Origin: Dryomyza anilis
Taxonomy: Eukaryota > Arthropoda > Insecta > Diptera > Dryomyzidae
Assembly: GCA_951804985.1 (NCBI GenBank)
Contig: OX638136.1
Span: 1,987,852-2,051,851 of the forward strand
Length of the DNA stretch: 64,000 nt
Direction of reading: 5' to 3'
The notes beneath the pieces are model-generated. The model searched no databases. It was not told the DNA's origin and saw only the letters and a list, made by a program, of their open reading frames with translations. Both the position numbers and the translations under genes were made by a program. Every line of letters begins with the position of its first letter. The first letter of the stretch is position 1. Shown in pieces: positions 6,571 through 59,680 of the stretch.

Positions 6571-8085
6571 TCCTTTTGAAAAATCATTGATAGAATCATG
6601 TGCAAATGAATCGTCAAAAGTTGCAATCATTTTTTCTATTCATAGGATTGCTCGAAATATCATGTTATTCGTTTGATTCGAACCAAATGAATTTGATTTT
6701 AATTAAGTGAATCAAGTCTTCTGTTATTTATAGTAGCCTAACTATATATTTATAGTATATATAGTTATTTATAGATTACATCACTTTTTTTGCAATGACT
6801 TTTTAAAGCAAAAGATTCAATCCCAAAAACACACAATCATTTGTCAAGTCATATGATTGCTTCATAAGCGACTCGGAAACAAATTATTTTGCTACATATA
6901 CGGCTCGAAGCTGGTTCGAAGCAAATGATTTTGAGTTCGTTTTGTTGAAATCTTATTTCACACTCAAGATTTAAAATAAAACAAATTCAAATCATTTGTT
7001 GTTTGAAAATTGTCAATTCTCTTCTTTAAATATTTGTGCTTGAAACAAAAACAGCTGGAAGTCTGTGCTCATATATCATTAAGAAGGGGAGTGTCTTGTG
7101 CATGCATGTGCGAGAGTCGAGTGACGCAGGCTTGTTCGGTATATTGTGTGTGCAGCTTGCTGACGGCTAGCTTTCTTTGTGAGGTTTCCGTGAATTTTTC
7201 GCAGCACATAAGTGTATGTGTACCTTGACTGCTACCAGGAAGTGTGATGTTGGCATTTCGGATCGAACATACGCCCATCACACTAAAAGCTTGCCTTCTG
7301 TCAATCACAACGTGATCAATTTGCTGCGTGTGTTCTGATCATGTGACTACCACTTAGCCTTGTGAATACCATGTTTCATGATGCGGTGAAGTCGATCAGA
7401 CATTGTCGGAGGTGTTGCGGTGGACGATAATTTTTCCGACTATTGGGCCAAAGTTACCGTCATGACTCACTTTGGAATTAAAGTCGCCAATCATAGAGTC
7501 CGGTGAAGCGCTCATAGAAGGTTTCTGGTTTCATCGTCCATCTCATGATCGTGTCCGTTTTTTTTAATTATGCATTGTAAACCTCCTTTTATTTACTAGC
7601 AATATTGTGGTGTATATTTTTTGATACCATATGTTGCAATCATGAAAGTCCCTTTTAATTATATAAATATAATAAATATACTCTAATGACGGAAAAGACT
7701 TCAAGTTGTTTTGGTTGCAAGCACAAAGATTTAAAAAAGTGAACAAACAACAAATGATTTGAGTTTGTTTTATTTTAAATCTTGAGTGTGAAATAAGATT
7801 TCAACAAAATGAACTCAAAATCATTTGCTTCGATCCGTATATCATTTGTTTCCGAGTCGCTTATGAAGCAATCATACGACTTGACAAATTTTTGGGATTG
7901 AATCTTTTGCTTTAAAAAGTGATTGCAAAAAAAAGTGATTCATTCCTAAGACTATAAGTAACAGAAGACTTGATTCACTTAATTAAAATCATTGCACATT
8001 AATTTGATTCGAATCAAATGAATAATAACTCTTGACGATTCATTTGAAAATGATTCTAATAAGGATGTTTCAAAAAGATTTTAAC
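6571..8085. mobile_element. Foldback-type element with long inverted arms
   Basis: The left arm (about 6571-7008) and right arm (about 7737-8085) are imperfect reverse complements; for example gaatcgtcaaaag at 6610 matches cttgacgattc near 8030. The left arm has about 30 extra bases of tatatagtt-type sequence near 6735. The 730-bp centre contains a decayed non-LTR endonuclease fragment. AT-rich sequence continues to 8248 before the gypsy frame resumes, so the outer right border could be there. Target duplication is not clear. Confidence 0.65.
7222..7510 (-). pseudogene. Non-LTR retrotransposon endonuclease fragment inside the foldback
   Basis: Read on the minus strand in broken frames, this segment shows the order typical of AP-endonuclease domains of fly RTE-like retrotransposons: a GDFNSKV motif (catalytic Asp/Asn) near 7480, a NTSDN segment near 7420, then QIDHVVIDRR near 7310 and an S-I-R-N-A-N-I segment near 7255 where R-G-A-N-I normally stands. 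Several frameshifts and stops interrupt it and the catalytic SDH end is missing. It is non-functional. Identification rests on motif recall, not on a search. Confidence 0.55.
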
Positions 8086-36350: not shown

Positions 36351-36836
36351 ATCTGACTCGTTTCAGTTTAAAGCTTGATTAAAATTTACGCTATTTTGGT
36401 CATGATCCTGTCTTTCTACATGTCTGGGTTCATCTGCAGATTGATTTATTGAGCGCTTGCGTTTTTTTAGGACAGTCACGTGCCATATGCCCATATGTAT
36501 CACAGTTGTAGCATTTACCTTGGTAGCATGTTACCTTGGGCGCAATCACTGTTGCACGTTTTGTCTCCTGATCGCGTATGCCATCAACAAACGCTTCGAT
36601 TTTGCACTTTTCTATGAAATCACTTGCTGAATCTGAATACGACAAATGCGCAAGCCTCTCGACGTCCGCTGCATACGCCTGAAATGTTTCACCATTTCGT
36701 TGCATTCGGCCCTTTAGTTCCTTTCTGTAGATCTGCTTCATGTGATCACTTCCATATTTCCGTTGCAGCCATAACCGCTGTGTAACTATTCCGTGTCCAC
36801 ATTTTTCGATGACGCTGTTGCAGCTTCTACTTCAAA
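36351..36836 (-). pseudogene. gag: Gypsy C2 gag, interrupted by element D
   Basis: The open piece 36430-36741 carries the capsid C terminus (RNGETFQAYAADVERLAHL) and one zinc knuckle (CYNCDTYGHMARDC). The sequence then jumps by an internal deletion (near 36790) to the end of the SAP-containing N-terminal part and stops at 36836, where element D begins. The remaining gag start of C2 is at 55067-55190. Confidence 0.8.
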
Positions 36837-37324
36837 CTCCAACGTTGAATTATACTTACTCCTACTTTAGTACTTTAATTATTTCCCAATAAATAATATA
36901 TATTTGAATTCTTTTAATTTAAACTTAAGACTTTATTTCAACACTTTTTAGCTCAATATTTTTGGCTTGTTACACCTCTAAATTCTATTACACAACTCAC
37001 TTAAAATTTAACTTAACTATTGTAAGAAGGCATGTTTCAAAACTACATGTTCCGGCAGAGTGCCGTGCGCAAATTCCACTCACTATTTGCTTCCGTAAGG
37101 GAAAAAAGCCCTTAGCCAATCATGCTGCTGCTGGTTTGACCCAGCTTCGCTCATACTGTTGCTAGTTCATTGGCTTGCTGGACTATGACACATATGTCCT
37201 ACGTTGCACTTTACTGCAACGTAACGATAACTGCATGAAGTAGTCATAGCGTAAGTAGGTCACGATACGTTTATAATATCAACGTATAGTGACTTACCAA
37301 AACACACTATGTTGACTTACAACA
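36837..37324 (-). mobile_element. 3' LTR of element D
   Basis: Matches 54580-55066 with about seven differences over 488 bp, so the insertion is fairly young. Its outer end lacks the first nine bases (tgttagtat), and the join to C2 gag falls at a shared ctc. The inner end ttacaaca meets the polypurine tract. Confidence 0.85.
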
Positions 37325-37342: not shown

Positions 37343-37721
37343 AAGAAAAAATTATTATTTTATTGAGTAACGTAATAGAGTGGAAGATAAGCAAACACTT
37401 TTTGGTTCTAAACAATTAAATGATTTTTTGTAATTTATTGTCTTAAATTAGATACAATTTATTTTTGAATTTCTATATTATATTACAAATGTTTTATATA
37501 TTTATTAAATTGTGATACAAACAAAATAATAATAAATAGTTAATTACAAATATATAATGCTCTGGAAAATAATAATTTTTTTTTTCCCTTTTTATTCTTA
37601 TATACACTTATATTTTTTTTTTGTTTTTCAATCCCTCTTTTGTTTTTCAATCCCTCATATTAATAATTCTAATTTATAATATATATTGAATTTTCTTCTT
37701 GAATCCCTCATACTCATATCC

Positions 37722-39684
37722 TTAAATCATTCCATAAGCTGGTCCCAATGTCGTTATGGTTGGCTTTCGACTCTGCTCTTCGTCCTCATGTTTCTGTTTA
37801 ACAACTTCAGCTCGTTGACTTGTGGTTGGCCGAAATGCAATACGCTCCGCTAACTCGTTCTCCTCAATTTTTACGCTACTGATGGCATTTACTGTTGCTA
37901 CTGTCTCCCTATCCTTCAGTGACTCTGTTGATTTTAGCTTTCTCGATGATTCTACTCGAAGGTACCAAAAATACGCTAATACCACGAATATTAACACCAA
38001 CACTACCACGCCGTACGATGCTCCCATAGTCTTCATCTCGTGCTGATGCTTTAGCCATTCTAGCCGCTCTTGCTTCTGACTCATTTCCGCTTTCAGATCT
38101 TCAAAACTGCGCTGGCCATTTCTTAGTGCTGACCGTAATTTGCTGTGGTCCGACGTCTGTATTGGCAAAAGTGTGACTGACGCATTTTCTGTGCGTTCCC
38201 CATTCCCCCTTTATATTTTCGATATACAAGGTGTGCTCCTTTTTTTATAGGTTACATTCCTGAACATTCTTGGTGCAGATTCATAAGGCAATATTAATTC
38301 TCTGTTGTACAAGTCGCAGGCCTCATTCACTGACATCCACCCCATCCCTGCTAGCGTCAGTGTAGCCGTGTTTGTTCCGCAAATCGCTTCGAAAACCGCT
38401 GGCGTATCAAACCTGAACAACCAGGAGTTTGAAGCCCATAGTTTCACTACCAACCCTGAACTCTTTCTAATAGCCACATGTTCACAGGTATTCACTATAT
38501 CTGTCCTTTGTTGCATTAACGTGACCTCACAAAGTACATTGCTGCTCGTCATAATCGTTCACGGACGTCTACATAGCGTTATCTCCTTGTCCATCTCTTG
38601 GTTCACCGTAACACATCTTAAATGATCCTCGTGCGTTAATCCTATGAATCTACTCCGATCTTCCGCCTCAGCTATGTAGTCATACTTTGTCTTAACCAGC
38701 GAGTCCCATTCCTCATTGATGTCCTGTACAACGCAAATAACACATCATCCGGCAGTGGTGTCTTAATTATGAAGATCAGACTATCCCCGTCCGGAAAAAC
38801 TCGTACCTTTGACAAATGATGCATATCAAAAGTCTGTTGAATAAACCAATTCGCTTTGCCCCTTAATTTGAGACGGGCCAACATTGCGTCTAGTTCCTTT
38901 CGGTCTATTATCGTAGGATGCAGATCCCCCTTGTAGAGATCGTCAATTATTGCCATTTCTATTGATTGTTGTCCCTGAATCTTCATTAAATTAGCATTTA
39001 TGGTTGTCTGTATTTCCAACAAATGTAACATAAACTGTACTTTGTTGAGCTTGTTATCTATATCTCTATTTATTTTCTGCTGTTGTTGTATGGTGTTGTT
39101 CAATGTCATATGTAGTTCTTCCATCTCCCTTAGAGAATCCAGCAATGGTGCTGACAATTTCCAAAATTAGATGTCATCACCGTCACCTGTTTCCTCATGA
39201 CGTCATAGGTTTCGCTCTCTCGGTTCTCAATGTCCTCCAGATGTTTGTATATCTTTTCTCGATCACTGTTGTCCATTACGCCGAAAGCCCAGTTAAAGCC
39301 CTCACTTACGAAATTTAGCGACCTCTTTTGGCGATTCTTTTGAATTGTTCTTTTAATAACACCCTCATTTTTCTGTAATGTCCTCATTATCGACGATGTT
39401 TCTTGCATTGCTGCTTCACACGATCTTCCGAAATTCATTCCTGGTACGCTTGAACTCATTTTCCGGCACATTTCAATGGCTGCTTCCATATATTTTTTCG
39501 TTAGATCCAGAAAATTCGTCAGCTGCAGTGGTATGAACTTAGTTATCACTGTCCATTCGTCACTATAAAATAATGCCTCAGTAGTTTTCTCAAAAAATAT
39601 TCTTGTCTCGTTCATCGGCGTCTGCGTGATGTTGACTGCTTCAGCTGCTGCCAACACCAGGACCAGCATAAGGATCTTATTCAT
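37722..39684 (-). pseudogene. env: Element D env, copy 1 (more broken)
   Basis: A copy of the F-type envelope gene with at least three frame breaks: an 11-bp or similar insertion near 39140, a frameshift near 38715 shared with copy 2, and a one-base loss in a T run near 38240 not present in copy 2. Recognisable parts are the signal peptide after the ATG at 39684, a furin-like site followed by a fusion-peptide-like segment, a heptad-rich region, and the C-terminal membrane anchor with cytoplasmic tail (37722-38168). It cannot make a full envelope protein. Confidence 0.85.
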
Positions 39685-40019
39685 AATGTCCCTAAAACAA
39701 AAATAATTATACATATCTATTATATATATAATTATTTACACTTATGTCCTAAGTTAATCTACCTTTCCCACCTTAGCATACTACATAAAATTATTCCATA
39801 CACTTACATTTTAATTTCCACCTGGTTCAAATTTTTTATCTTCTTTTTTTTACTTTAAAATTCAAAAACCTAACGTTTCTTTATCCAAATTTAATCGTTT
39901 AATCTCAACTTTATATTTAATATCTATTTTGTCCAAACTTAAATTTGCTATAGTCGTACACTCACCGTAGAACCTCATTTAAACAATGTGTCGTGAGTTA
40001 ACGAACTGTCCTCAGTACT

Positions 40020-40025
40020 TATAAA
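40020..40025 (+). promoter_or_regulatory. TATA-like box upstream of the antisense gene, copy 1
   Basis: TATAAA lies 178 bp before the ATG at 40198 and is followed by an initiator-like tcagta at 40036, closer than usual. The same box is in copy 2 at 45726-45731. Promoter function is inference. Confidence 0.35.
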
Positions 40026-40197
40026 GTGTCCAAAATCAGTATTTTACAAAAACGGCGCCGGCTATCTTCGGTCGAAATGCGGAGTCAAATTCGCGATTTT
40101 TTATTTTTTTATTTTAAAAATGTTCTTATTTGTCTTCTATGGACGACAATCATTTAGTTGCAGTTTATTCTTTGGATATTCAACTTCAATTTTAATC

Positions 40198-40895
40198 ATG
40201 TTCCGTAAGTAAAAATTGTATTTATTTATATATATATATTTATATATTTATTTATTTATATTTGTTTTTAACCCTACTGCTGCCCAGGGCCTACAGGAGG
40301 ACAGGCGCGAGAAACTGCGCAAGGAGCAGGATGAGCTCCGGGCTGCCCGAAGGCAGCAACCTCCTGCCGTGAGGCAGCATCCTTTAACAATTCGCGATCT
40401 AGACGCGTTACGACAACAAGGATTAGTCATCGAGCATTCAGACGAGAACAGTTAGTAAATTTATTTAGATTTTTAAATTACTCATTTATAAATATATATA
40501 TATATTTTTTTTTTAAATTAATTAATTTTTGTTTTTTTTTTTTGTTTTGGTTGTTTTCAGACATTCTCACAAATTTTGATGATATTGGCTTCAGTGACGA
40601 CAACACCGAGTATGTTCGAGGTAGGATGAGCGAACGCCAGGTTATGCTCATCTGGAACAGCAACCAACTTAAATATTTCGAGGCATATTTGACAACGCTC
40701 AGGGCGAATTGGTGGGATGAAGGCGTTGATACACGCCTGCATCGCCTCATCGAATATTACAAGGATGATCCAACATTTGAAGTATTTCTCATAATTTGCC
40801 GCGAAATCGTGCGTTTAGAGAAGGAAGCCGGCCCGCTGATCGGGACGCTGTTCGTCCCGCTGGTGGTCATGTACTTGGGTGCCTTCACCCCCTAA
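40198..40895 (+). pseudogene. Antisense spliced gene in element D, copy 1 (splice acceptor lost)
   Basis: Same gene as 45904-46624. Exon 1 (ATG at 40198, donor gtaagt at 40205), the exon 2 body to 40450 (donor gttagt) and exon 3 (40561-40895, stop TAA) are present and almost identical to copy 2. The stretch holding the intron 1 acceptor and the first bases of exon 2 is deleted. The remaining cccag near 40288 would not keep the reading frame. As written, this copy could only produce the protein by another start or splice choice. Product unknown. Confidence 0.6.
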
Positions 40896-40984
40896 AATAT
40901 GTGAAATTTATTTGAAAATGATGTAAAAATGATGTGAAAAATTATATTAAAACCAAGATTAAAAGAAATAAAATACCCACATAA

Positions 40985-42200
40985 AAAAAAAAAATTACAT
41001 CTATCCGTTGTTATTATTTGGAAAACAAACTGGTTATTTTCATCGTCGACTTCTACTTTTTCTTTTGTTTTAACACCAATCGCTTGATATAAAAATTTAT
41101 ATAATTTTCATGGTCGATTTTTGTTCTTATTTTTTATTTGTATTTCTTGCTTGTATTTCTCGCTTGTTAAAAAAAAATAAAAACAGAAAAATTGCAAAAT
41201 GACAACAGAAAATTGCAAATTCTGCATTTAGTAACGCGTTTTATTTTCCTTAATTATGCAAATATATATATGTATATTATATTTTTTTTGTTCTTTTTGG
41301 TCGACCGTGATTTATTTGCTTTTACTTTTTGTTTATATATAATTGTATTTAACTATCCAATCTGCCTATGCCATTGTTTCTTGAGATCATTTTTATTTCT
41401 TCCTATTAAAAGCTTTTATCCTATTTATTTATTCTACATTTCACTTTAGTTTATTTATCCCTATATTATTTCATTGATTTCACGATTTCATTACACATTA
41501 TTTTTTTTTAATTTTTTTTTTATTTTTTAAATCCCATATAATTCTATATTGTTTCATTATCATTAATTATTATTTTTCGTTTTATTTATTAATCATATTT
41601 TACCCCCTATTCCGCAACAACTTTGGTAATCAATTATTCTTTAATATATATGCATATATATATATTTTTTTTTTTTTAAATAATTCTTGCTACTTTGCAC
41701 CTTCCCTTTACTCCACGCCGTCTCGCGCCATCTAGCCATTTATTATGATTTTAATATTTTATTTAATGCATTAACGTATCTCATTTCATTTGTAGTGCAT
41801 TAACAGCGAGCAGTGGTTCCTATCGTATGAGTCAATGCCTTTGACTGACCTATATTAATTGTAGTGACAATTCAACTTTTATTTTAGTTAATTAGTTTTA
41901 TTTTATTATTATTTAATTTAAATTTAAGTTAAATTACCTTACTCCCTTATCTATTTTCTTTACTCAAACTTTTTATACATAATTATTTCCTTATGCACTA
42001 ATTTATTTTATTAATATTAAATCCCTATATATTTATTTTATTTAATCCATAAAACTCTTATTTACGCGTACATTGCCCCCTTTTTTTTTCTTGTTTTTTT
42101 TATTTTTTTTTTTTTGCTCTTCACCCTTATTTACAATATTATGCTTTTAACATTATCTAAATTATGTGTTATGATATTTACGAACTGTTTGTTACGTTAT
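40985..42200. other. Non-coding AT-rich spacer of element D, copy 1
   Basis: Lies between the antisense gene (ending with AATAAA near 40967) and the 3' end of integrase. Long T-rich runs and no supported gene; the equivalent spacer in copy 2 is 46713-47932. Confidence 0.5.
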
Positions 42201-43244
42201 TTATTTTGTTATATTTGCTTCAAAATTATATGCTTTTAATAAATTGTTATGGAATTTTTTCCCTTTTCCTTTGATAGAAATCATCGTTGTTACAGGACTT
42301 ACTATCGAAAGTACTTCGTACGGTCCTACCCAAATGGATGAAAATTTATTCTTTCTGTTCTGATTTTTTAACAATATTTTATCACCTACGCTAAATATTT
42401 TTGGGTGTAATGTGCTATCATAGATTTGTTTAGATTTTTCTTTTGCTTTTTCTTGATTCTCTCTCACGATTTCGTGTGTGCGTTGAATTTGATATTTTAA
42501 TAACTTGTTGTAATCGTCGGTATTATATACTGGTGAACATTTTCGCTTAAGATTTGTTGGCATCTCAAATTCGTACCCGTATAAAGTACGGAAAGGTGTT
42601 TGCCCCGTGGACATATGTACTGTGTTATTGTGCACATGCATTGCTGAATTTAACCATTGGTCCCAGTTCGACCCATCTTCTTTTGCAAAACTTCTTAAAT
42701 ATTCTGCTAACGGTCGATGGCTTCTTTCCAAGGACCCATTAGCTTGTGGATGATATGGTGTAATATGTAATTTTTTAATTCCTAACAATTTACAAGTATC
42801 TGAAAACAGTTTTGAGACAAAATTGGAACCATTGTCCGTTACTAATACCTTCGGTATATTATGACGTGTAATGATTTCGTCGTAAAATGCTTTTGCTACT
42901 GTATTTGCCTCCGCATCAGGTATGGCAACGCAGCACATGTATTTTGAAAAATCATCTTGAAAAGTTAATATATATTTATTTCCAGATATAGTTTCCGGTA
43001 AAATACCTACAAGATCCATGTATACTTTATCGAATGGTCGTACAGGCGTATCAGTTAAAACCATTGGCATTTTAGTAAGCCTAGAACTTTTATATACTTG
43101 GCATTTTTGACAATTCTTAACGTAATCTTTTATTTGTTTCTGCATACCTTTCCACTTAAATTGTTTTCTGATTCTAAAATATGTTTTCACTGCGCCCTGG
43201 TGACCCCCTAATGCTGAGTCATGAAAGTCTTTTATAACAGTTTT
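42201..43244 (-). pseudogene. pol: Element D integrase, extra partial copy
   Basis: About 330 residues are open. The CxxC half of the zinc domain is present (NCQKC), then YMDLVG (first catalytic Asp), VTDNGSNF (second Asp), GSLERSHR (Glu) and a basic C terminus with VGDKILLKNQN and IWVGPYEV. The N-terminal His pair is cut off by the duplication junction at 43244/43245, so the domain is incomplete. The catalytic residues are intact. Confidence 0.85.
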
Positions 43245-43443
43245 AATAATAAATAGTTAATTACAAATATATAATGCTCTGGAAAATAATAATTTTTTTT
43301 TTCCCTTTTTATTCTTATATACACTTATATTTTTTTTTTGTTTTTCAATCCCTCTTTTGTTTTTCAATCCCTCATATTAATAATTCTAATTTATAATATA
43401 TATTGAATTTTCTTCTTGAATCCCTCATACTCATATCCTTAAA

Positions 43444-45390
43444 TCATTCTAAAGCTGGTCCCAATGTCGTTATGGTTGGCTTTCGACTCTGCTCTTCGTC
43501 CTCATGTTTCTGTTTAACAACTTCAGCTCGTTGACTTGTGGTTGGCCGAAATGCAATACGCTCCGCTAACTCGTTCTCCTCAATTTTTACGCTACTGATG
43601 GCATTTACTGTTGCTACTGTCTCCCTATCCTTCAGTGACTCTGTTGATTTTAGCTTTCTCGATGATTCTACTCGAAGGTACCAAAAATACGCTAATACCA
43701 CGAATATTAACACCAACACTACCACGCCGTACGATGCTCCCATAGTCTTCATCTCGTGCTGATGCTTTAGCCATTCTAGCCGCTCTTGCTTCTGACTCAT
43801 TTCCGCTTTCAGATCTTCAAAACTGCGCTGGCCATCTCTTAGTGCTGACCGTAATTTGCTGTGTTCCGACGTCTGTATTGGCAAAAGTGTGACTGACGCA
43901 TTTTCTGTGCGTTCCCCATTCCCCCTTTATATTTTCGATATACAAGGTGTGCTCCTTTTTTTTATAGGTTACATTCCTGAACATTCTTGGTGCAGATTCA
44001 TAAGGCAATATTAATTCTCTGTTGTACAAGTCGCAGGCCTCATTCACTGACATCCACCCCATCCCTGCTAGCGTCAGTGTAGCCGTGTTTGTTCCGCAAA
44101 TCGCTTCGAAAACCGCTGGCGTATCAAACCTGAACAACCAGGAGTTTGAAGCCCATAGTTTCACTACCAACCCTGAACTCTTTCTAATAGCCACATGTTC
44201 ACAGGTATTCACTATATCTGTCCTTTGTTGCATTAACGTGACCTCACAAAGTACATTGCTGCTCGTCATAATCGTCCACGGACGTCTACATAGCGTTATC
44301 TCCTTGTCCATCTCTTGGTTCACCGTAACACATCTTAAATGATCCTCGTGCGTTAATCCTATGAATCTACTCCGATCTTCCGCCTCAGCTATGTAGTCAT
44401 ACTTTGTCTTAACCAGCGAGTCCCATTCCTCATTGATGTCCTGTACAACGCAAATAACACATCATCCGGCAGTGGTGTCTTAATTATGAAGATCAGACTA
44501 TCCCCGTCCGGAAAAACTCGTACCTTTGACAAATGATGCATATCAAAAGTCTGTTGAATAAACCAATTCGCTTTGCCCCTTAATTTGAGACGGGCCAACA
44601 TTGCGTCTAGTTCCTTTCGGTCTATTATCGTAGGATGCAGATCCCCCTTGTAGAGATCGTCAATTATTGCCATTTCTATTGATTGTTGTCCCTGAATCTC
44701 CATTAAATTAGCATTTATGGTTGACTGTATTTCCAACAAATGTAACATAAACTGTACTTTGTTGAGCTTGTTATCTATATCTCTATTTATTTTCTGCTGT
44801 TGTTGTATGGTGTTGTTCAATGTCATCTGTAGTTCTTCCATCTCCTTTAGAGAATCCAGCCAATTTCCAAAATTAGATGTCATCACCGTCACCTGTTTCC
44901 TCATGACGTCATAGGTTTCGCTCTCTCGGTTCTCAATGTCCTCCAGATGTTTGTATATCTTTTCTCGATCACTGTTGTCCATTACGCCGAAAGCCCAGTT
45001 AAAGCCCTCACTTACGAAATTTAGCGACCTCTTTTGGCGATTATTTTGAATTGTTCTTTTAATAACACCCTCATTTTTCTGTAATGTCCTCATTATCGAC
45101 GATGTTTCTTGCATTGCTGCTTCACACGATCTTCCGAAATTCATTCCTGGTACGCTTGAACTCATTTTCCGGCACATTTCAATGGCTGCTTCCATATATT
45201 TTTTCGTTAGATCCAGAAAATTCGTCAGCTGCAGTGGTATGAACTTAGATATCACTGTCCATTCGTCACTATAAAATAATGCCTCAGTAGTTTTCTCAAA
45301 AAATATTCTTGTCTCGTTCATCGGCGTCTGCGTGATGTTGACTGCTTCAGCTGCTGCCAACACCAGGACCAGCATAAGGATCTTATTCAT
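43444..45390 (-). pseudogene. env: Element D env, copy 2 (F-type envelope)
   Basis: The ATG at 45390 is chosen because it opens a signal peptide (MNKILMLVLVLAAAEA) and lies just after a strong splice acceptor (ttttgttttag, AG at 45399-45398), as expected for spliced env mRNA. The 44389-45390 part is open. It has a furin-like site RQKR about 120 residues in, then a LNFVSEGFNWAFG fusion-peptide-like segment and a Q/N-rich heptad region, resembling errantivirus and baculovirus F proteins. A frameshift near 44450 and another near 43850 separate it from the middle piece (43817-44323) and the C-terminal piece with the anchor VVVLVLIFVVLAYFWYL (43444-43884). Envelope proteins fuse virion and cell membranes; this copy is broken. 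Confidence 0.85.
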
Positions 45391-45725
45391 AATGTCCCTA
45401 AAACAAAAATAATTATACATATCTATTATATATATAATTATTTACACTTATGTCCTAAGTTAATCTACCTTTCCCACCTTAACACACTACATAAAATTAT
45501 TCCATACACTTACATTTTAATTTCCACCTGGTTCAAATTTTTTATCTTCTTTTTTTTACTTTAAAATTCAAAAACCTAACGTTTCTTTATCCAAATTTAA
45601 TCGTTTAATCTCAACTTTATATTTAATATCTATTTTGTCCAAACTTAAATTTGCTATAGTCGTACACTCACCGTAGAACCTCATTTAAACAATGTGTCGT
45701 GAGTTAACGAACTGTCCTCAGTACT

Positions 45726-45731
45726 TATAAA
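45726..45731 (+). promoter_or_regulatory. TATA-like box upstream of the antisense gene, copy 2
   Basis: TATAAA lies 178 bp before the ATG at 45904, in the 510-bp gap between env (minus strand) and this gene (plus strand), which are divergent. Inference only. Confidence 0.35.
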
Positions 45732-45903
45732 GTGTCCAAAATCAGTATTTTGCAAAAACGGCGCCGGCTATCTTCGGTCGAAATGCGGAGTCAAATTCGC
45801 GATTTTTTATTTTTTTATTTTAAAAATGTTCTTATTTGTCTTCTATGGACGACAATCATTTAGTTGCAGTTTATTCTTTGGATATTCAACTTCAATTTTA
45901 ATC

Positions 45904-46624
45904 ATGTTCCGTAAGTAAAAATTGTATTTATTTATATATATATATTTATTTATTTATATTTATTTCTTGGTTATATATTCATCAGCAAATGTTTTTAACC
46001 CTACTGCTGCCCAGGGCCTACAGGAGGACAGGCGCGAGAAACTGCGCAAGGAGCAGGATGAGCTCCGGGCTGCCCGAAGGCAGCAACCTCCTGCCGTTAG
46101 GCAGCATCCTTTAACAATTCGCGATCTAGACGCGTTACGACAACAAGGATTAGTCATCGAGCATTCAGACGAGAACAGTTAGTAAATTTATTTAGATTTT
46201 TAAATTACTCATTTATAAATATATATATATATTTTTTTTTTAAATTAATTAATTTTTGTTTTTTTTTTTTTTGTTTTGGTTGTTTTCAGACATTCTCACA
46301 AATTTTGATGATATTGGCTTCAGTGACGACAACACCGAGTATGTTCGAGGTAGGATGAGCGAACGCCAGGTTATGCTCATCTGGAACAGCAACCAACTTA
46401 AATATTTCGAGGCATATTTGACAACGCTCAGGGCGAATTGGTGGGATGAAGGCGTTGATACACGCCTGCATCGCCTCATCGAATATTACAAGGATGATCC
46501 AACATTTGAAGTATTTCTCATAATTTGCCGCGAAATCGTGCGTTTAGAGAAGGAAGCCGGCCCGCTGATCGGGACGCTGTTCGTCCCGCTGGTGGTCATG
46601 TACTTGGGTGCCTTCACCCCCTAA
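45904..46624 (+). CDS. Three-exon gene on the antisense strand of retroelement D, product unknown
   Basis: Proposed exons are 45904-45910, 45986-46177 and 46290-46624, giving 534 nt (177 residues plus stop). Intron 1 has donor gtaagt and acceptor ttcatcag (75 bp). Intron 2 has donor gttagt and an acceptor after a pyrimidine run ending ttttcag (112 bp). The frame is open across all joins. Exon 2 encodes a charged Arg/Glu/Gln-rich helix. Exon 3 encodes an acidic, aromatic-containing region and ends in about 20 hydrophobic residues (LIGTLFVPLVVMYLGAF), possibly a tail anchor. The exons are far richer in G+C than the flanks. AATAAA at 46696-46701 follows. It lies between integrase and env, opposite to both. 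I do not recognise the protein; a captured host gene is possible. Confidence 0.65.
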
Positions 46625-46695
46625 AATATGTGAAATTTATTAGAAAATGATGTAAAAATGATGTGAAAAATTATATTAAAACCAAGATTAAAAGA

Positions 46696-46701
46696 AATAA
46701 A
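46696..46701 (+). terminator. Polyadenylation signal of the antisense gene, copy 2
   Basis: AATAAA 72 bp after the stop, followed by a short A run at 46713. The matching signal of copy 1 is near 40967. Confidence 0.5.
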
Positions 46702-46712
46702 ATACCCACATA

Positions 46713-47932
46713 AAAAAAAAAAATTACATCTATCCGTTGTTATTATTTGGAAAACAAACTGGTTATTTTCATCGTCGACTTCTACTTTTTCTTTTGTTTT
46801 AACACCAATCGCTTGATATAAAAATTTATATAATTTTCATGGTCGATTTTTGTTCTTATTTTTTATTTGTATTTCTTGCTTGTATTTCTCGCTTGTTAAA
46901 AAAAAATAAAAACAGAAAAATTGCAAAATGACAACAGAAAATTGCAAATTCTGCATTTAGTAACGCGTTTTATTTTCCTTAATTATGCAAATATATATAT
47001 GTATATTATATTTTTTTTGTTCTTTTTGGTCGACCGTGATTTATTTGCTTTTACTTTTTGTTTATATATAATTGTATTTAACTATCCAATCTGCCTATGC
47101 CATTGTTTCTTGAGATCATTTTTATTTCTTCCTATTAAAAGCTTTTATCCTATTTATTTATTCTACATTTCACTTTAGTTTATTTATCCCTATATTATTT
47201 CATTGATTTCACGATTTCATTACACATTATTTTTTTTTAATTTTTTTTTTATTTTTTAAATCCCATATAATTCTATATTGTTTCATTATCATTAATTATT
47301 ATTTTTCGTTTTATTTATTAATCATATTTTACCCCCTATTCCGCAACAACTTTGGTAATCAATTATTCTTTAATATATATGCATATATATATATTTTTTT
47401 TTTTTAAATAATTCTTGCTACTTTGCACCTTCCCTTTACTCCACGCCGTCTCGCGCCATCTAGCCATTTATTATGATTTTAATATTTTATTTAATGCATT
47501 AACGTATCTCATTTCATTTGTAGTGCATTAACAGCGAGCAGTGGTTCCTATCGTATGAGTCAATGCCTTTGACTGACCTATATTAATTGTAGTGACAATT
47601 CAACTTTTATTTTAGTTAATTAGTTTTATTTTATTATTATTATTTAATTTAAATTTAAGTTAAATTACCTTACTTACTTATCTATTTTCTTTACTCAAAC
47701 TTTTTATACATAATTATTTCCTTATGCACTAATTTATTTTATTAATATTAAATCCCTATATATTTATTTTATTTAATCCATAAAACTCTTATTTACGCGT
47801 ACATTGCCCCCTTTTTTTTTCTTGTTTTTTTTATTTTTTTTTTTTTTGCTCTTCACCCTTATTTGCAATATTATGCTTTTAACATTATCTAAATTATGTG
47901 TTATGATATTTACGAACTGTTTGTTACGTTAT
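46713..47932. other. Non-coding AT-rich spacer of element D, copy 2
   Basis: Copy of 40985-42200. No gene supported; a short CG-containing patch (ccacgccgtctcgcgcc) near 47441 stands out in the T-rich background. Confidence 0.5.
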
Positions 47933-49063
47933 TTATTTTGTTATATTTGCTTCAAAATTATATGCTTTTAATAAATTGTTATGGAATTTTTTCCCTTTTC
48001 CTTTGATAGAAATCATCGTTGTTACAGGACTTACTATCGAAAGTACTTCGTACGGTCCTACCCAAATGGATGAAAATTTATTCTTTCTGTTCTGATTTTT
48101 TAACAATATTTTATCACCTACGCTAAATATTTTTGGGTGTAATGTGCTATCATAGATTTGTTTAGATTTTTCTTTTGCTTTTTCTTGATTCTCTCTCACG
48201 ATTTCGTGTGTGCGTTGAATTTGATATTTTAATAACTTGTTGTAATCGTCGGTATTATATACTGGTGAACATTTTCGCTTAAGATTTGTTGGCATCTCAA
48301 ATTCGTACCCGTATAAAGTACGGAAAGGTGTTTGCCCCGTGGACATATGTACTGTGTTATTGTGCACATGCATTGCTGAATTTAACCATTGGTCCCAGTT
48401 CGACCCATCTTCTTTTGCAAAACTTCTTAAATATTCTGCTAACGGTCGATGGCTTCTTTCCAAGGACCCATTAGCTTGTGGATGATATGGTGTAATATGT
48501 AATTTTTTAATTCCTAACAATTTACAAGTATCTGAAAACAGTTTTGAGACAAAATTGGAACCATTGTCCGTTACTAATACCTTCGGTATATTATGACGTG
48601 TAATGATTTCGTCGTAAAATGCTTTTGCTACTGTATTTGCCTCCGCATCAGGTATGGCAACGCAGCACATGTATTTTGAAAAATCATCTTGAAAAGTTAA
48701 TATATATTTATTTCCAGATATAGTTTCCGGTAAAATACCTACAAGATCCATGTATACTTTATCGAATGGTCGTACAGGCGTATCAGTTAAAACCATTGGC
48801 ATTTTAGTAAGCCTAGAACTTTTATTTACTTGGCATTTTTGAAAATTCTTAACGTAATCTTTTATTTGTTTCTGCATACCTTTCCACTTAAATTGTTTTC
48901 TGATTCTAAAATATGTTTTCACTGCGCCCTGGTGACCCCCTAATGCTGAGTCATGAAAGTCTTTTATAACAGTTTTAATTTCCTCTGGGTCAGTTAATAG
49001 TAGACTTGAGTTTAATTCGTTCTTGGTGTCTGTTGTTATTTCATCCAGTACTGGCGTGCTCAC
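47933..49063 (-). pseudogene. pol: Element D integrase
   Basis: A 376-residue open stretch with the zinc-domain histidines (FHDSALGGHQGA) and the catalytic motifs MDLVG, VTDNGSNF and GSLERSHR. The first cysteine of the CxxC pair is phenylalanine (NFQKC), unlike the partial copy at 42201-43244, which keeps it. The link to RNase H upstream is interrupted by a stop near 49066. Ends with the same basic C terminus as copy 1. Probably inactive because of the lost zinc ligand and broken pol. Confidence 0.85.
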
Positions 49064-50774
49064 TTGTTATTTGGTTTTTGAAATTTGATTATCTAATTTA
49101 TTCTGTGTGGTCTTAGACCGTGTTTGGACCGCAGTAATATCTGGTTCTGGATGTGGAATTCTACTTAAAGCATCTGCGTTCAAATTCTGTTTACCTGGTT
49201 TGTAAGATATTTCGTAATCATATTCTGATAATTTATGTCTGAAACGGGCTAACCTTGATGCCTGATCTTTAAGATTTGCTGTGCTACGTAATGGTTGATG
49301 ATCTGTATAAATTTGAAAATGTCGACCTAGAAGATAAGCTCTAAAATTTTTCGTTGCCCAGACATAGCTAAAAATTCTTATTCAATAGTGGAGTAATTTT
49401 TTTCTGCTCCATTTAATGCCCTACTAGCAAATGCTATTGGTCGGTCGCTCCCTACTTTGCCTTGTGACAGTACCGCACCTATTGCTTCGTTACTGGCATC
49501 CGTTGTAAGTAAAAAAGGTTTTGTAAAATCTGGATATGCGAGAATGGGTGGTGAAATTATTGATTCTTTTAGTTTAATAAATGAATTTTGACAAACGTCG
49601 GTCCAAGTGAATTTAACATCCTTTCTAAGTAACTTATTAATTGGTAATGATAATTTTGCCATATTGTTTATAAATTTTCTGTAATAATTAATTAATCCCA
49701 AAAACGCTTGTACTTCTTTTTTATTTCTTGGTACCGGAATATTTTTCACGCATTCAACCTTTGAGGGGTCTGGCAGAGCACCTAGTTCCGAACATTTATG
49801 TCCTAAATAGACAACTTCGCGGCGCAAAAACTGACATTTTTCTGTATTTAATTTTAGACTGTGTTCCCTTAATTTCTGCAATACTCTACTCAACCTAAGC
49901 TCATGTTCAGCTAAATTCTTTCCGTACATCACTATATCATCAAGATAAACAAAGCAATCAATACCCTGTAAACCTGTTAATATGTGGTTCATTATTGTTT
50001 GGAAGGTAGCTGGTGCACCTGTTAAGCCAAATAGCATTCTGTTAAATTCGAAATGACCCAGTCCTGTACTAAAAGCCGTTTTTTCTTTATCTCTTTCTTC
50101 TACTAAAACCTGATGATAACCGCTTGCTAAGTCTAAAGTTGAAAAATATCTACTATGTCCTAACTGATCTAATATCTCGTCTATCCGGGGAATCGGAAAT
50201 ACTTGTTTTATTGTCACTTCATTTAGTTTACGAAAATCTATTACTAATCTCCATTTCTTGCTACCTTCCTTACCGCTCTTTTTTGGTACCAGCAATACTG
50301 GTGAATTCCAAGGTGAGATACTCGGCGATATAATGCCGTCATCTAACATTTTTCCTACCTGTCTATTAATTTCTTCCCTATGTATATGGGGTGGCTTATA
50401 TTGTTCTGATTAATTGGCGGTTGGTTCCACTGTGTAACTATTTCATGTTTAAGCGCTGACGTGTATGTTAATTCATCGCCATCTAAATGAAAAACATCAT
50501 GATAAGAAATACACAGATTTTGTAAAGATGTAATTTCGTCTTTATTTAAAGTCTCATCGATTTTCATTTTCTCTAATAATCTGTTAATTGTGTTTGTAAT
50601 GTTTACTGAATTTATGCTGTTTATTGCAGAATTATTTGTATCCGATTTTTTATACTGATTAAAATTTGAAAATTTTGGTTTAAAAGTACTGTCTATTATA
50701 ATTTTCTTCTCTGTAGCATTTAAAACTGATACATAAACTCTATTTTTGCTGACATTCGATATGCTTTCGCCCAA
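49064..50774 (-). pseudogene. pol: Element D reverse transcriptase and RNase H
   Basis: The open piece 49378-50349 contains the RT core: WNSPVLLVPKK, WRLVIDFRKLN, FSTLDLASGYHQV (first catalytic Asp), a MLFGLTGAPATFQ segment (Leu where Pro is usual), CFVYLDDIVMY (catalytic YLDD), LINYYRKFI, and RNase H start LTTDASNEAIGAVLSQ. A stop and frameshift near 49378 interrupt RNase H, whose remainder (TDHQPL-type segment near 49290, DALSRIPHPEPD near 49160) continues to about 49080. A further frame break near 50350 separates the N-terminal pol segment (50355-50774). Motifs are like the gypsy/17.6/297 group. Confidence 0.85.
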
Positions 50775-50885: not shown

Positions 50886-51932
50886 TTAAAAAATATTTTC
50901 CATATCTGTCCGTGTCCTCATTGGTAATTGTATAGTATTGTTTTTATCTTTATCATAAAATATTAAACTCTTATCTATAGCATTTATTATGGACCTATTC
51001 CATATATTATCCCGTCCTATTATACCATCAGCGGGTATTCCTTGCTCAATTGCCACTACATGCATCTTTAAACAGAACCACTCTATACTACTGTGCTGAA
51101 TGTTTATTGTCCCTAATGTCCTTACGCATCCCCCAAAGGCACCACTAAAGTCCTTCTGAGTATTTTTGTCAAAACCTGGAAATCTTGTCATCGCCCCCTC
51201 CTTTACTATACTAGCATCTGCTCCCGAATCTACCAGTAATATGAGATTTCCATTTTTAGCAGCCTCACAAGGTACTTCGATGAAAACATCACTTACATTA
51301 GGTAGTTTGAAACAATCACTCTGCCTACTGCATATTATACGGTTCCCTCTTTTACTAAACCCACACATATTGCATCTAATCTTCTTACTATATTCTACCA
51401 CGAAATTCTCAAAACTTTTTGATATTCTTGATAATAAGTTGTTTACTCTATACCCTACTATTACTACTTCCTCTCTAAATGTTCCCTTATATTTTTCATA
51501 TCCTGCTGGTTTTTTTATTTTGTTCCCTAATGTAATCGACACAATACTTATAAAATGTATGAAATGAATTATTATACCTGCTACTGTATTACAAACCAAA
51601 CAAGGTGGCTCAACATATGTATCAACTGTCAGTCCCGACGTTTGATGAACAATATTTTCGCCCATTTTTTCTCCCTGCACCTTCTCCTTACAGACCAAAC
51701 ACGGTGGCTCAACATATGTATCAACGGTCACTCCCGACGTTTGATGAACAATATTTTCGCCCATTTTTTCTCCCTTCACCTTCTCCTTACAGACCAAACA
51801 CGGTGGCTCAACATATGTATCAACGGTCACTCCCGACGTTTGATGAACAATATTTTCGCTCACGGTTTTTTGGCTGTTATTCGCAACTTTGGTAGCGAAT
51901 GTGATCACAGGCTCCCTTTGCGTATGATCCAC
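50886..51932 (-). pseudogene. pro: Element D protease with upstream 33-residue repeats
   Basis: A 348-residue open frame. The first 110 residues or so hold three tandem copies of a 33-residue unit, each with a YVEPPCLVC segment. A hydrophobic stretch (IIIHFIHFISIVSITLG) and a Cys-containing segment (CNMCGFSKRGNRIIC) follow. The retropepsin motif LLVDSGADASIV is near residue 240 and IPADGIIGRDNIW is the second block. The DSGA variant of the active site is normal for Ty3/gypsy proteases. The frame is closed at both ends by stops, so it depends on frameshift or has lost its links. Confidence 0.8.
51590..51865. repeat. 99-bp tandem repeat, three copies
   Basis: Three near-identical 99-bp units in the protease reading frame; the third and second are nearly the same, and the first has more changes and is truncated in its cysteine segment. 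Confidence 0.85.
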
Positions 51933-54570: not shown

Positions 54571-55066
54571 TGTTAGTATCTCCAACGTGGAATTATACTT
54601 ACTCCTACTTTAGTACTTTAATTATTTCCCAATAAATAATATATATTTGAATTCTTTTAATTTAAACTTAGACTTTATTTCAACACTTTTTAGCTCAATA
54701 TTTTTGGCTTGTTACACCTCTAAATTCTATTACACAACTCACTTAAAATTTAACTTAACTATTGTAAGAAGGCATGTTTCAAAACTACATGTTCCGGCAG
54801 AGTGCCGTGCGCAAATTCCACTCACTATTTGCTTCCGTAAGGGAAAAAAGCCCTTAGCCAATCATGCTGCTGCTGGTTTGACCCAGCTTCGCTCATACTG
54901 TTGCTAGATCATTGGCTTGCTGGACTATGACACATATGTCCTACGTTGCACTTTACTGCAACGTAAAGATAACTGCATGAAGTAGTCATCGCGTAAGTAG
55001 GTCACGATACGTTTATAATATCAACGTATAGTGACATACCAAAACACACTATGTTGACTTACAACA
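54571..55066 (-). mobile_element. 5' LTR of element D
   Basis: Complete LTR of 496 bp, starting tgttagtat and ending ttacaaca on the plus strand. It is followed directly by the second half of the interrupted C2 gag. Confidence 0.85.
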
Positions 55067-55190
55067 CTCTGCGAGGTCAATGCCTTGGTTCTCTAATTCT
55101 TCCATTCTACTTTCGTACCAGCAGTTGCAAGATTACGAATCGACAGCTCCTTCTTTAGCTGGTCGGCTTTAAGATGATCGAATTTAACCA
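55067..55190 (-). pseudogene. gag: Gypsy C2 gag N terminus (right flank of D)
   Basis: Continues the C2 gag across element D: the ATG at 55190 begins the same SAP-like N terminus as C3, with a 14-bp deletion near 55107. In C3 the two flanks are joined at 59517-59530. Confidence 0.8.
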
Positions 55191-55221
55191 TTTTGTATCA
55201 CAATCCCACTTCTGACACCAA

Positions 55222-55762: not shown

Positions 55763-56760
55763 ACCTTTCTAAATGTACCACTTTCATTTTTCGTCTAACG
55801 CCTGCAGTACTCTGAATCCGATACACGGCATCGTTAATTCTTGTAATTATCTAGTATGGTCCTTCCCAGTGTGTTTGTAGCTTAGGGGATAAGCCTTTCT
55901 TCCTTTGTGGGTTATAGAGCAAAACAAGCTCTCCTTCCGTAAATCCCTCTGAATTTGTGCACTAGTCGTATCTGGCCTTCATCTTATCACTCGCAAATTC
56001 ATTTCTTCACTTTTCCTGGAAACATAATCGTGTACAGGAATTCCAGCTGAAGGGCTCGCACCGAACTACAAATCCGCAGGTAATCTTAAGTCTGTTCCAA
56101 AAACAATTTTAGATGGTGAAGCTGCTGTGGTATCATGAACGTTCGATAAGCCATGAGGAATAGTGGTATGTGTGTATCCCAATCTTTTTGATTTTTATTA
56201 ACCACTTTTCTGAGATACTCTTCCAAAATCCGATTGAATCTCTCCACCATGCCGTCTGATTGCGGGTGCAAAGGCGTTGTTCGTGTTTTGAGTATGTTGA
56301 GGATTTTGCGTAATTCTTTAAAAACTGCAGACTCAAAATTTCTTCCTTGGTCTGAATGCAATTCCAACGGTACTCCAAAACGGCTTACCCAGTTGTTAAC
56401 TAATGCATCCGCAACTGTTGTGGCTTCTTGATTCGGCTTGGGATACACTTCAGGCCACTTGCTGAAATAGTCAATGACGACAAGCACATTCTTATTCCCC
56501 GCATCACTGATTGGAAACGGCCCGGCGACATCCATGGCAATACGCTCGAATGGTGCTCCCACGTTGTACTGATGCATCCTACCGTGACTTCTCACTGTTG
56601 GTCCTTTTGCTGGTACACATTGCGGGCAACTGCGAATCCAATCTGCGACTGACTCTTGGCATCCAATCAAATAAAAACGTTTCTTTACCTTCTCGACCGT
56701 TTTATTAATGCCCAAATGACCACCACTAGATCCACCATGGTATTCCGCTAATATATCTTT
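55763..56760 (-). pseudogene. pol: Gypsy C3 integrase
   Basis: The open part 56086-56715 is identical in protein to C2: zinc domain, then the three DDE residues in MDVAGP, HSDQGRNFES and MVERFNR, and the same frameshift after LFLMAYRT. A 36-bp deletion near 55999 distinguishes it from C2. Confidence 0.85.
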
Positions 56761-58170
56761 TATTTTTGACTTGGGAACAACAATTAAACTTCGAGCGGAT
56801 GTGCCATCTTCATTTTCCCATACACGATATAAGCAACCATCTTGTAGCTTTAGGCTCTGCCACTGTGCCCAGTAAGCTTTAGTTATGGCACTGTCGGCAG
56901 CTATATCTTTCCATGATGGTTTTCTTTGCTGTTCCTTGTGAGGTCGGGATCACTCTTTTGATCAATTTGAATTTGTTCCGAAGTCCATTTTTCATCGGGC
57001 AAAACATTTAGCAAACGAATGTCAATTATGTTTTCTTTTCCTTCCGCTCTTGAACAATGTCTAGTTTACATGGGCGTCGTGACAGAGCATCTGCATTTCC
57101 ATGATGACCTCCTTTACGATGTTCTATGGTGAAATCGTAGCTCTGTAATCGTTCTATCCAACGCGAAATTTGACCTTCTGGGTCTTTGAACAGACGTGAA
57201 ACTGTTGCCCGTACAGGTATTTGTAAAAATTTTTCACACTTTCGATTACAGCAAGAAGCTCCCTCCTGGTGACGCAGTAATTTCGCTCGGGTTTGGACAA
57301 TGTTTTACTGTAGTATGCGATCACTTTTTCTTTTCCATTGATCACTTGAGAGAGAACTCCGCCGATTCCGTATCCACTCGCATCCGTATCAAGTACAAAT
57401 TTCTCACCTGGGATTGGATACGCAAGAATTGGTGCCGAGCACAGCAAAAACGCCCTTTCTTGATCATTGCTCCATTGAAATGCGCGGTTCTTTCTTGTCA
57501 ACTCGTGAAGACTGCTAGCTACATTGGCAAAACCTGGAACAAATCGTCTGTAGTATGTACATAGCCCCAAGAAACTTCGTAGGTCATGTAGATTTTGCGG
57601 TATGAGCCACTCCATGACTGCAACTATTTTATTCTCATCGGTATGCACGCCTTCCGTGGTAACTCGATGACCCAGATACTTGACTTCTTTCTTGAAAAGT
57701 GAGCATTTCTTTGGGCTAAGTTGTAGACCCGCATTTTGCAATCGAAGGAATACTTCCTCTAGATTTCTTAGATGTTCTTTGAAATCCTTGTCCATAACAA
57801 TTATGTCATCAAGGTATACTAGGCATGTTTTCCAGTGTTAACCATTTAATACGTGCTTCATTAACCGTTCGAATGTTGCTGGGGTATTGCATAGTCCAAA
57901 CGGCATTACCAAAAATTGCCATAGTCCATCTCCAGTACTGAATGCGGTCTTCTCTCTATCTTTTGGCCCTTTTCAGCAAATATACACCGATATTTGTCAA
58001 TTAGCTGTTGCACTTGACTCTTTTCTTTGCCACCCAAATCCTTCGTCCACTCATTTATAAACCTGTGAGTAGATTGTTTGTTTATTTGCGATGTGCCGTA
58101 GTCCCTTGATGGATTTGACTCACAATTTATAATCGCTAATGCCTCTTGACACTGGCCTATCACTGTTTAC
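56761..58170 (-). pseudogene. pol: Gypsy C3 RT (internally deleted) and RNase H
   Basis: As in C2. The YLDD motif is near 57800-57815, the connection domain and RNase H (57154-57795) are open with DTDASGYGIGGVL and TRRELLAVIESV, and the RT fingers are deleted at the same point. One residue differs from C2 in the connection domain (Val against Asp in a YYRRF-following position). Confidence 0.85.
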
Positions 58171-58735: not shown

Positions 58736-59668
58736 TCATCTGCAGATTGATTTATTGAGCGCTTGCGTTTTTTTAGGACAGTCACGTGCCATATGCCCAT
58801 ATGTATCACAGTTGTAGCATTTACCTTGGTAGCATGTTACCTTGGGCGCAATCACTGTTGCACGTTTTGTCTCCTGATCGCGTATGCCATCAACAAACGC
58901 TTCGATTTTGCACTTTTCTATGAAATCACTTGCTGAATCTGAATACGACAAATGCGCAAGCCTCTCGACGTCCGCTGCATACGCCTGAAATGTTTCACCA
59001 TTTCGTTGCATTCGGCCCTTTAGTTCCTTTCTGTAGATCTGCTTCATGTGATCACTTCCATATTTCCGTTGCAGCCATAACCGCTGTGTAACTATTACTA
59101 TCGCTTTCTGCAACAGTCTGCAATACTTCGGCTGCTCCACCTTTTAGGGTCACAATAAGCGCTGCTACGCTTTTTCAATGTTCCATCGATTACTTACAGC
59201 CGTTGTCTCAAATTGGAGCTTGAAAATGTTAAACGCTGTGGTTCCATCGTAAATCGGCAATTTCAGCTTCGAACCACTAAGACCTTGCTGTGTAGGTCCA
59301 CTTAGCTGATTGGAATTTTCTTGAAATTGTTTTGAATTTTCCAGAAGTTTTGCTTTTAGTTGATTTGAATTTTCTTGAAGTTTCTGTTCCATTTTGCTGG
59401 AATTTTCTTGAAGCTGTTGTTGTATTGCTCCGAGCAACTGGCTAATATCAAAACTTTGGGACTGTACTTTTTGCTCCGTGTCCACATTTTTCGATGACGC
59501 TGTTGCAGCTTCTACTTCAAACTCGTGCTCTGCGAGGTCAATGCCTTGGTTCTCTAATTCTTCCATTAGACGCTTTTGTAGCTCTACTTTCGTACCAGCA
59601 GTTGCAAGATTACGAATCGACAGCTCCTTCTTTAGCTGGTCGGCTTTAAGTTGATCGAATTTAACCAT
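58736..59668 (-). pseudogene. gag: Gypsy C3 gag (most complete of the array)
   Basis: The start ATG at 59668 follows the primer site by 13 bp. Residues about 5-40 form a SAP-like motif (LKKELSIRNLATAGTKVELQ). A Gln/Asn-rich coiled-coil with repeated Q-E-N-S-x segments follows, then LKLPIYDGTTAFNIFKLQFE. After a frameshift near 59150 the second part (58736-59140) carries the capsid C-terminal region and the zinc knuckle CYNCDTYGHMARDC. SAP motifs bind DNA; here a role in tethering or RNA binding is only inference. Confidence 0.8.
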
Positions 59669-59680
59669 TTTGTATCACAA

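Follow-up and report, generated by a model that had tools for sequence, protein, structure and literature searches.

The window, i.e., the whole stretch of 64,000 nucleotides from the fly Dryomyza anilis that was analysed (contig OX638136.1, positions 1,987,852 to 2,051,851), contains an LTR retroelement, here called element D, which is read from the minus strand. Its 5' LTR (54580..55066) and 3' LTR (36837..37324), both on the minus strand, form a pair with 98.8% identity over a 488-bp match. According to its Pfam matches, the minus-strand pol gene has the order reverse transcriptase (RT)-RNase H-integrase of the Ty3/gypsy type, with an RT/RNase H part at 49378..50409 (RVT_1, 3.6e-35) and an integrase part at 47933..49066 (Integrase_H2C2 and rve). 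Downstream of pol, and also on the minus strand, two Baculo_F matches identify an env of the baculovirus-F type, which is distributed over three pieces: the first at 44389..45441 (3.8e-16), the second, in another frame, at 43817..44461 (2e-9), and the third, again in another frame, at 43444..43926, where a membrane-anchor region was recognised by eye and no Pfam match lies above the cut-off. An acceptor-like sequence, TTTTGTTTTAG, directly precedes the env ATG at ~45400 in the sense direction, and a PPT-like AAGGGTGGGGGTA before TGTTG and a PBS-like TGGCGCACCCGG are present as well, all three as judged by eye only.

Between the end of integrase (47933) and the acceptor-like site of env (~45400, by eye), a gene is found on the plus strand, i.e., opposite to gag, pol and env. 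Its frame of 177 codons is obtained by joining positions 45904-45910, 45986-46177 and 46290-46624. The coding part of exon 1 (45904..45910) consists of 7 nt only, ATGTTCC, and is followed by the donor GTAAGT at 45911. Intron 1 (45911..45985) is 75 nt long, is in phase 1, and ends at 45985 with the acceptor ..TTCATCAG. Exon 2 (45986..46177) encodes a charged N-terminal half with an [HFY]-S-D motif at its end, and is separated from exon 3 by intron 2 (46178..46289), 112 nt long and also in phase 1, with the donor GTTAGT at 46178 and the acceptor ..TTTTCAG. Exon 3 (46290..46624) encodes a conserved domain and a hydrophobic tail that is peculiar to the D family, and it ends with the stop codon TAA. 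Re-derivation of this model yielded exactly the three exons, two donors, two acceptors and 177-residue frame of the original prediction, which had been made from the sequence alone. The TATA-like box and the AATAAA claimed at the same time could be located by motif match on the plus strand at 45726..45731 (TATAAA, a putative promoter) and 46696..46701 (a putative poly(A) signal). The distance from the TATA box to the ATG is 178 nt, and the box is, as read from the sequence, far from the LTR. An A-run follows the AATAAA and is kept in other copies. A retrocopied mRNA with a poly(A) tail was considered here and rejected, as the introns have been retained and inspection by eye revealed no clear target-site duplication.

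The sharp contrast in base composition that had been reported for the exons is evident, with a GC content of 0.54 in exon 2 and 0.48 in exon 3 against 0.12 and 0.11 in introns 1 and 2, 0.30 in the 5' flank and 0.23 in the 3' flank. A GC segmentation that was blind to splice sites placed blocks at 45999-46178 and 46316-46621, close to exons 2 and 3; it returned, in addition, the block 45659-45801 as well as one or two short ones at 47417-47578. Frame length is weak evidence for coding, since 413 of 4000 first-order Markov simulations for exon 2 and 87 of 4000 for exon 3 produced frames equally long, and it would leave room for a frame that is open by chance. Such a chance frame is ruled out by codon periodicity together with the conservation in other copies and families described below. 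The GC content of the coding sequence at codon positions 1, 2 and 3 is 0.59, 0.35 and 0.57 (chi-square, p = 2e-5), and the signal is found in exon 2 (p = 0.003) and exon 3 (p = 0.0007) separately. GC3 is 0.57 in the antisense gene, 0.27 in RT, 0.28 in integrase and 0.44-0.50 in the env pieces. The frame is, very probably, a real gene, and it is the conservation in other copies that settles this point.

The antisense gene occurs twice in the window because part of element D, comprising the integrase-gene-env region, is duplicated in tandem (37527-43247 and 43244-48979, head to tail, 98.9% identical). The second gene copy, on the plus strand at 40177..40895 (start approximate), has lost the acceptor of intron 1 by a deletion, which also makes the start of exon 2 seem to differ when the two copies are compared; these differences are an artefact. 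In exons 2 and 3, the copies differ by one synonymous change where about two changes are expected, as estimated from other differences, so this pair alone lacks the power to reveal selection. The env gene of this insertion is split over frames by two breaks in both halves of the duplication and one more in the left half. Gene copies that lie close together in pairs, 3-14 kb from each other, are also seen at other places in the genome (for example, C4:53266810/53270650, C2:57980665/57995006 and C5:32209732/32213144), as if internal duplications were frequent, or as an effect of the assembly. The gag/protease region of D contains a tandem repeat of its own (51589-51760 and 51688-51859; 172-nt matches at an offset of 99 nt, 97% identical), in which a peptide with a CLVCKEKV-type ending is repeated. 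Element D itself is nested in another LTR element, as the sequence obtained by joining its flanks aligns across the junction with two further places in the window (89-90% identity). This host element (around 36700-36840 and 55065-55200) has several copies in the window; it shows Pol-type frames at 56086-57837 and possibly a SAP-type gag frame at 59165-59674, both as judged by eye.

Further copies were sought in the 656.6-Mb assembly from which the window derives, and all families and copies discussed here come from this one genome. Among 150 scored places, at least 57 are close to exon 3 of D, with 82-100% identity over at least 98 of its 110 residues. Forty D-type copies, i.e., two from the window, 20 with 6.0-8.8 kb of sequence and 18 with little flank, were compared; they represent 38 distinct coding sequences. 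Seventeen are intact, with a full frame, ATG, stop codon and all four splice sites, and their coding sequences are all distinct; the other 23 are not intact. The first donor, GTAAGT, is present in 37 of the 40 copies and missing in three, and the first acceptor AG in 36, and the second donor, GTTAGT, and the second acceptor AG are found in all 40. Exon 3 measures 335 nt in 33/40 copies, and intron 1 varies from 47 to 386 nt. Within the intact set, intron 1 has 75-386 nt and intron 2 101-127 nt, with all three classes modulo 3, and unspliced read-through is possible in none of the 17. TATAAAG is present in all 21 aligned copies and AATAAA in 18 of them. In the 20 loci with context, env sequence is always antisense to the gene. 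Integrase was found in 18 of these loci; L038 and L041 do not show it within range, L045 has it inverted, and in L036 it occurs on both strands. In none of the 20 was a gene copy seen to lie outside an element.

The search with exon 3 also yielded an intermediate group with 53-68% identity and 44 places with 31-38% identity (E <= 4e-4). Two of the remote loci, L069 and L070, were read with their context and are errantiviruses, with RT 75-89% and integrase 80-85% identical to those of D. In their main matches to the env of D, the first two pieces are 58-61% and the third is 38-46% identical. In both loci, a homologue of the gene lies antisense between integrase and env, as in D. Together with 16 more gene windows, they constitute families 3a (11 copies) and 3b (7 copies). 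A first coding exon of 7 nt, spotted by eye and then tested, is found here as well, ATGGCTG in 3a and ATGTCAG in 3b. Intron 1 is again in phase 1, and so is intron 2, which is located just past the S-D motif. By the criteria used for D, 5 of the 11 copies of 3a and 4 of the 7 of 3b are intact. All four splice sites are GT/AG in 7/7 aligned copies of 3b, and in 3a the sites of intron 1 are present in 11/11 copies and the donor and the acceptor of intron 2 in 10/11 each. Thus, three families share the position and the architecture of the gene, and the conservation in other copies and related elements that had been proposed as a check on the frame is borne out. The products of 3a and 3b are 30-31% identical to that of D. 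Columns invariant among five aligned sequences, which include two close 3a copies and of which one is a fragment, comprise W98, W118, L126, L129, I130, C146-R147-E148, P166 and Y171 (D numbering). At the DNA level, the spacers of D and its sister families share traces only, so the common architecture is not the result of a recent copy. The intermediate group is less well preserved: among nine copies, L093 and L094 show both donors and the acceptor of intron 2, with ATA for ATG in L094, L088 shows exon 2 and the acceptor of intron 2, and the other six are broken, cut or not resolved.

One copy of 3b deserves mention by itself. The antisense gene of L069 contains a 275-bp inverted copy of the 3' region of its own env (4029-4303 and 7028-7302, 100% identical). 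The insert derives from the membrane-anchor part, as judged by eye, and is in frame within an antisense frame of 371 codons. Judged by the length of exon 3, only one of the seven aligned copies of 3b has such an insert.

These data bear on the possibility that one element recently captured a host gene, which it now carries as functionless passenger DNA. The GC3 of the gene, far from that of RT and integrase though nearer to that of env, would fit such an origin, as would introns that resemble those of ordinary genes. However, the gene is present at 57 or more close places, its homologues in the sister families occupy the same place and have the same introns, its protein is under purifying selection (see below), and no copy was seen outside an element among the 20 D-type loci with context. 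A recent, functionless capture was rejected on account of the copy number and the sister families, and we regard it as highly improbable.

Selection was analysed by the method of Nei and Gojobori. The pN/pS ratio is 0.455 among the 17 intact D copies (136 pairs), 0.234 among five copies of 3a and 0.267 among four of 3b, whilst random placement of the same changes gave neutral means of 0.748, 0.651 and 1.00, respectively. The observed ratio was reached in 0/60 simulations for D and in 0/200 each for 3a and 3b, in a null distribution that is too narrow because the pairs share history and are not independent. The choice of intact copies for their open frames lowers pN slightly; with 38 D copies, including broken ones and with two short ones dropped, the ratio is 0.466. 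Comparison of exon 3 of D with the intermediate copies L071 and L088 (68 and 64 of 110 residues identical) gave dN/dS ratios of 0.17 and 0.24, which are rough values since dS is near saturation (1.5 and 1.3). Purifying selection on the protein, a further check that had been suggested at the outset, is supported by these comparisons. By part of the D gene, pN/pS is 0.39 in exon 3, 0.65 in exons 1-2 and 1.05 in the tail (residues 156-177), which indicates that constraint is weaker in exons 1-2 than in exon 3 and absent in the tail of D.

The same figures make it very unlikely that the antisense transcript works as an RNA, e.g., as a decoy, as double-stranded RNA or as a source of piRNAs, with the frame being incidental. 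Overlap with the genomic RNA would indeed form double strands, and antisense non-coding transcripts have been reported for micropia and TART of Drosophila, according to the accessible part of a review (PMC7264820). However, selection acts on amino acids (pN/pS and dN/dS as above), and the exons stay in frame while the introns vary freely.

Related elements without the gene are also present. In the locus L098, where integrase is 94% identical to that of D and env is open over 705 codons, the spacer measures 1.1 kb and lacks the gene. Neither env nor the gene was found in the stretches covered of L097 (integrase 98% identical) and L099 (a 2.5-kb stretch), one chance-level env match apart. These two loci resemble the env-less revertants described in insects in the accessible part of PMC12992720. 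Of 109 scored integrase matches, out of 11004 candidates, 20 have a listed place of the gene, in antisense, within 8 kb downstream and 89 do not, and these counts did not change when the remote gene places were added. Thus, the gene is old but dispensable, given its absence from the env-bearing L098, from L097 and L099 and from 89 of the 109 scored integrase matches. The association of the gene with env is based on a few loci, namely those that bear the gene together with L097, L098 and L099. A close relative of D with an integrase 97-98% identical is abundant; at least 20 of the 109 listed places have pol frames of 1513-1534 codons.

The spacer between pol and env is long (2.5 kb), and L097, which belongs to the close family, keeps only its integrase-proximal part. 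Both facts could suggest that the gene is part of a separate mobile element nested in the spacer. Its position is the same in three families, though, and no transposase was seen. Moreover, the spacer contains 51 inverted repeats, of which the 25 longest are matches of low complexity, rich in A+T, and a nested DNA transposon was rejected for want of credible inverted repeats among these 25. We consider a nested element hardly credible.

The product of the gene was not recognised in the original prediction, and it indeed matched no known protein: homologues were found neither in Pfam and PDB nor in viral and prokaryote contigs, and no relative of the D product was found in a set of 5.8 billion proteins that includes some insect proteins. 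In Pfam, none of five aligned family members gave a match at E <= 5, and two PDB matches at E 0.76 and 1.3 were taken as due to chance. When the viral contigs were scanned with env and RT pieces, no match was obtained, and a scan with an integrase alignment gave 22 remote loci. The proteins are acidic (pI 5.2, 4.7 and 4.1) and have ~180-215 residues. A structure model of exon 3 from the single sequence has five helices at low confidence (pLDDT 50), and 0/13 Foldseek matches of this model in PDB reached E <= 0.001; on this model, the product is probably helical. It diverges more between D and the sister families than pol and most of env do, which would fit a factor in conflict with the host but is no more than suggestive.

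The hydrophobic tail noted in the prediction exists in D and is specific to this family, the best mean Kyte-Doolittle value over 19 residues being 1.85 in D against 0.85 in 3a and 0.30 in 3b. A membrane protein, such as a viroporin-like or tail-anchored helper of Env, could be imagined from the tail of D and from the fact that gene-bearing loci with context also carry env, with the env-less loci examined lacking the gene. We consider this very unlikely, as the tail is insufficiently hydrophobic in 3a and 3b, is the least constrained part measured in D, and L098 has env without the gene. As the tail is not conserved, its reading as a membrane anchor was rejected.

An older capture, in which a gene of the host or of a DNA virus was acquired before D, 3a and 3b split and became an accessory gene later, concerns the origin of the gene and does not conflict with the interpretation that we prefer (see below). 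The presence of spliceosomal introns and of separate promoter-like and poly(A) signals are traits of cellular genes or of genes of nuclear DNA viruses, and the GC3 differs from that of pol. Against this, Pfam, PDB and the protein database returned no match to a progenitor, and introns also arise by de novo gain. We regard such an origin as evenly balanced with its opposite.

In all likelihood, this is an old accessory gene of env-bearing errantiviruses of the Ty3/gypsy group, encoded in antisense and expressed from a spliced mRNA, with introns that are kept by virtue of their orientation and with a protein under selection. The original prediction had left the choice between the capture of a host or viral gene and an undescribed accessory gene, in the only orientation that keeps its introns. 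The latter part stands, considering the three families, the same two introns and the purifying selection; recent capture is not supported, since no progenitor was found and the gene is common to diverged families.

Expression of such a gene can be envisaged as follows. In the provirus, it would be transcribed from the opposite strand by its own TATA-type promoter, the two introns would be spliced out of the antisense pre-mRNA, polyadenylation would occur at the AATAAA, and translation would yield an acidic, probably helical protein of ~180-215 residues acting in trans. Transcription, splicing and translation are what we infer from the conserved anatomy. Its place, antisense between the end of integrase and the acceptor-like site of env, would put it inside the putative env intron. 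Spliceosomes do not recognise introns in reverse complement. The genomic RNA would carry the introns in this form, inaccessible to removal, and reverse transcription would copy the gene with its introns; thus, the antisense orientation, which hides them from splicing of the genomic RNA, is probably what lets the introns survive reverse transcription. Being located within the pol-env region, the gene would also be removed from the spliced env mRNA. Selection would then maintain the protein and the splice sites.

With respect to function, we tentatively propose, by analogy with antisense genes of the HBZ type, that the protein may be a trans-acting regulator of the expression of the element itself. 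Counteraction of host RNA silencing is a second and rather unlikely guess. A more inclusive proposal is that an invertebrate retrovirus lineage, over many cycles of reverse transcription, kept an intron-bearing gene antisense inside its env intron, that the two introns and the 7-nt first coding exon predate the split now seen as ~30% identity, and that the product is a fast-evolving trans factor; as a whole, we give this combination slightly less than an even chance. Such a trans factor would plausibly control the expression of the element or blunt host RNA silencing, and the overlap of sense and antisense could make silencing hard to avoid without it.

Antisense genes are known from other retroelements. 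Additional antisense ORFs between pol and the 3' LTR are described for the plant Ty3/gypsy elements Grande (gene23), RIRE2 and Retand (TRP28) and for the fungal Boty, and gene23 reportedly uses its own upstream promoter, according to the accessible parts of two papers (PMC7264820, PMC11963269). As far as those parts go, the gene of D is similar in that it lies downstream of pol in antisense, is kept in related families and has no clear function. It differs in its presence in an env-bearing, insect-type errantivirus and in its two conserved introns, and its product shares no Pfam domain with TRP28 proteins (PF04195). The word "intron" is absent from the texts of both papers on antisense ORFs, and the review, in its accessible part, only urges to look for antisense and spliced transcripts (PMC7264820).

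In vertebrate deltaretroviruses, HBZ of HTLV-1, APH-2/3/4 and AS1/AS2 of BLV are antisense retroviral genes with spliced antisense transcripts and accessory proteins, and HBZ is expressed from the 3' LTR with splice forms distinguished by their 5' UTR and by the 5' end of what they encode, as stated in the accessible part of PMC10186651. To that extent, the gene of D is comparable, with its spliced antisense transcript and its accessory protein being predicted from sequence. Unlike in HBZ, the coding sequence is broken up by two introns, the promoter-like box has an internal position, and the product has no bZIP match in Pfam. Furthermore, D is an errantivirus and not a deltaretrovirus. Like gypsy, ZAM, Tirant and 17.6, D and its sisters have RT, RNase H, integrase and a Baculo_F-type env, as well as, in D, LTRs. 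For insect errantiviruses, gag, pol and env are the genes named in the accessible parts of two further papers, and the terms "additional ORF" and "accessory" are absent from their texts (PMC12992720, PMC13172572). In a literature search covering titles and the starts of abstracts, with subscription papers mostly outside its scope, no insect LTR element was found to be described as having an antisense gene with introns. As far as searched, therefore, the antisense accessory gene as such is already known and its conserved two-intron form in errantiviruses is new.

The same logic of orientation applies in engineered retroviral vectors that carry an intron-containing globin gene in reverse orientation to keep the introns through the RNA stage. 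In D, the arrangement is natural and conserved and, if our interpretation is true, would be the natural counterpart of such vectors. Retroelements are expected to lose introns in each cycle. Here, at least three families of infectious-type retroelements have apparently kept two introns, with the phase and relative position unchanged, by use of the opposite strand. Several questions thereby become open to direct test: how a complete eukaryotic gene with its own regulation can belong to a retroelement, whether accessory proteins comparable to those of the complex retroviruses of vertebrates also exist in insect retroviruses, and in what way such elements deal with the double-stranded RNA that convergent transcription would produce. 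TE annotation that is limited to gag, pol and env in the sense direction would miss such genes.

Two further loci are of some interest. Beside the intermediate gene copy in L071, long frames (1-2055) look like another mobile element or a virus-like insertion, and one of them resembles, by eye, a protease of the adenovirus/Polinton type. On C1, a region of ~36 kb (20355723-20391935, G000; overlapping L096, C1:20384500-20393000) holds many decayed fragments of both gene types (~38-68% identity), with the gene on the minus strand in all listed fragments, and a 227-bp tandem array of a piece of exon 3. This region could be an old unidirectional trap for elements, such as a piRNA cluster, or the result of local amplification.
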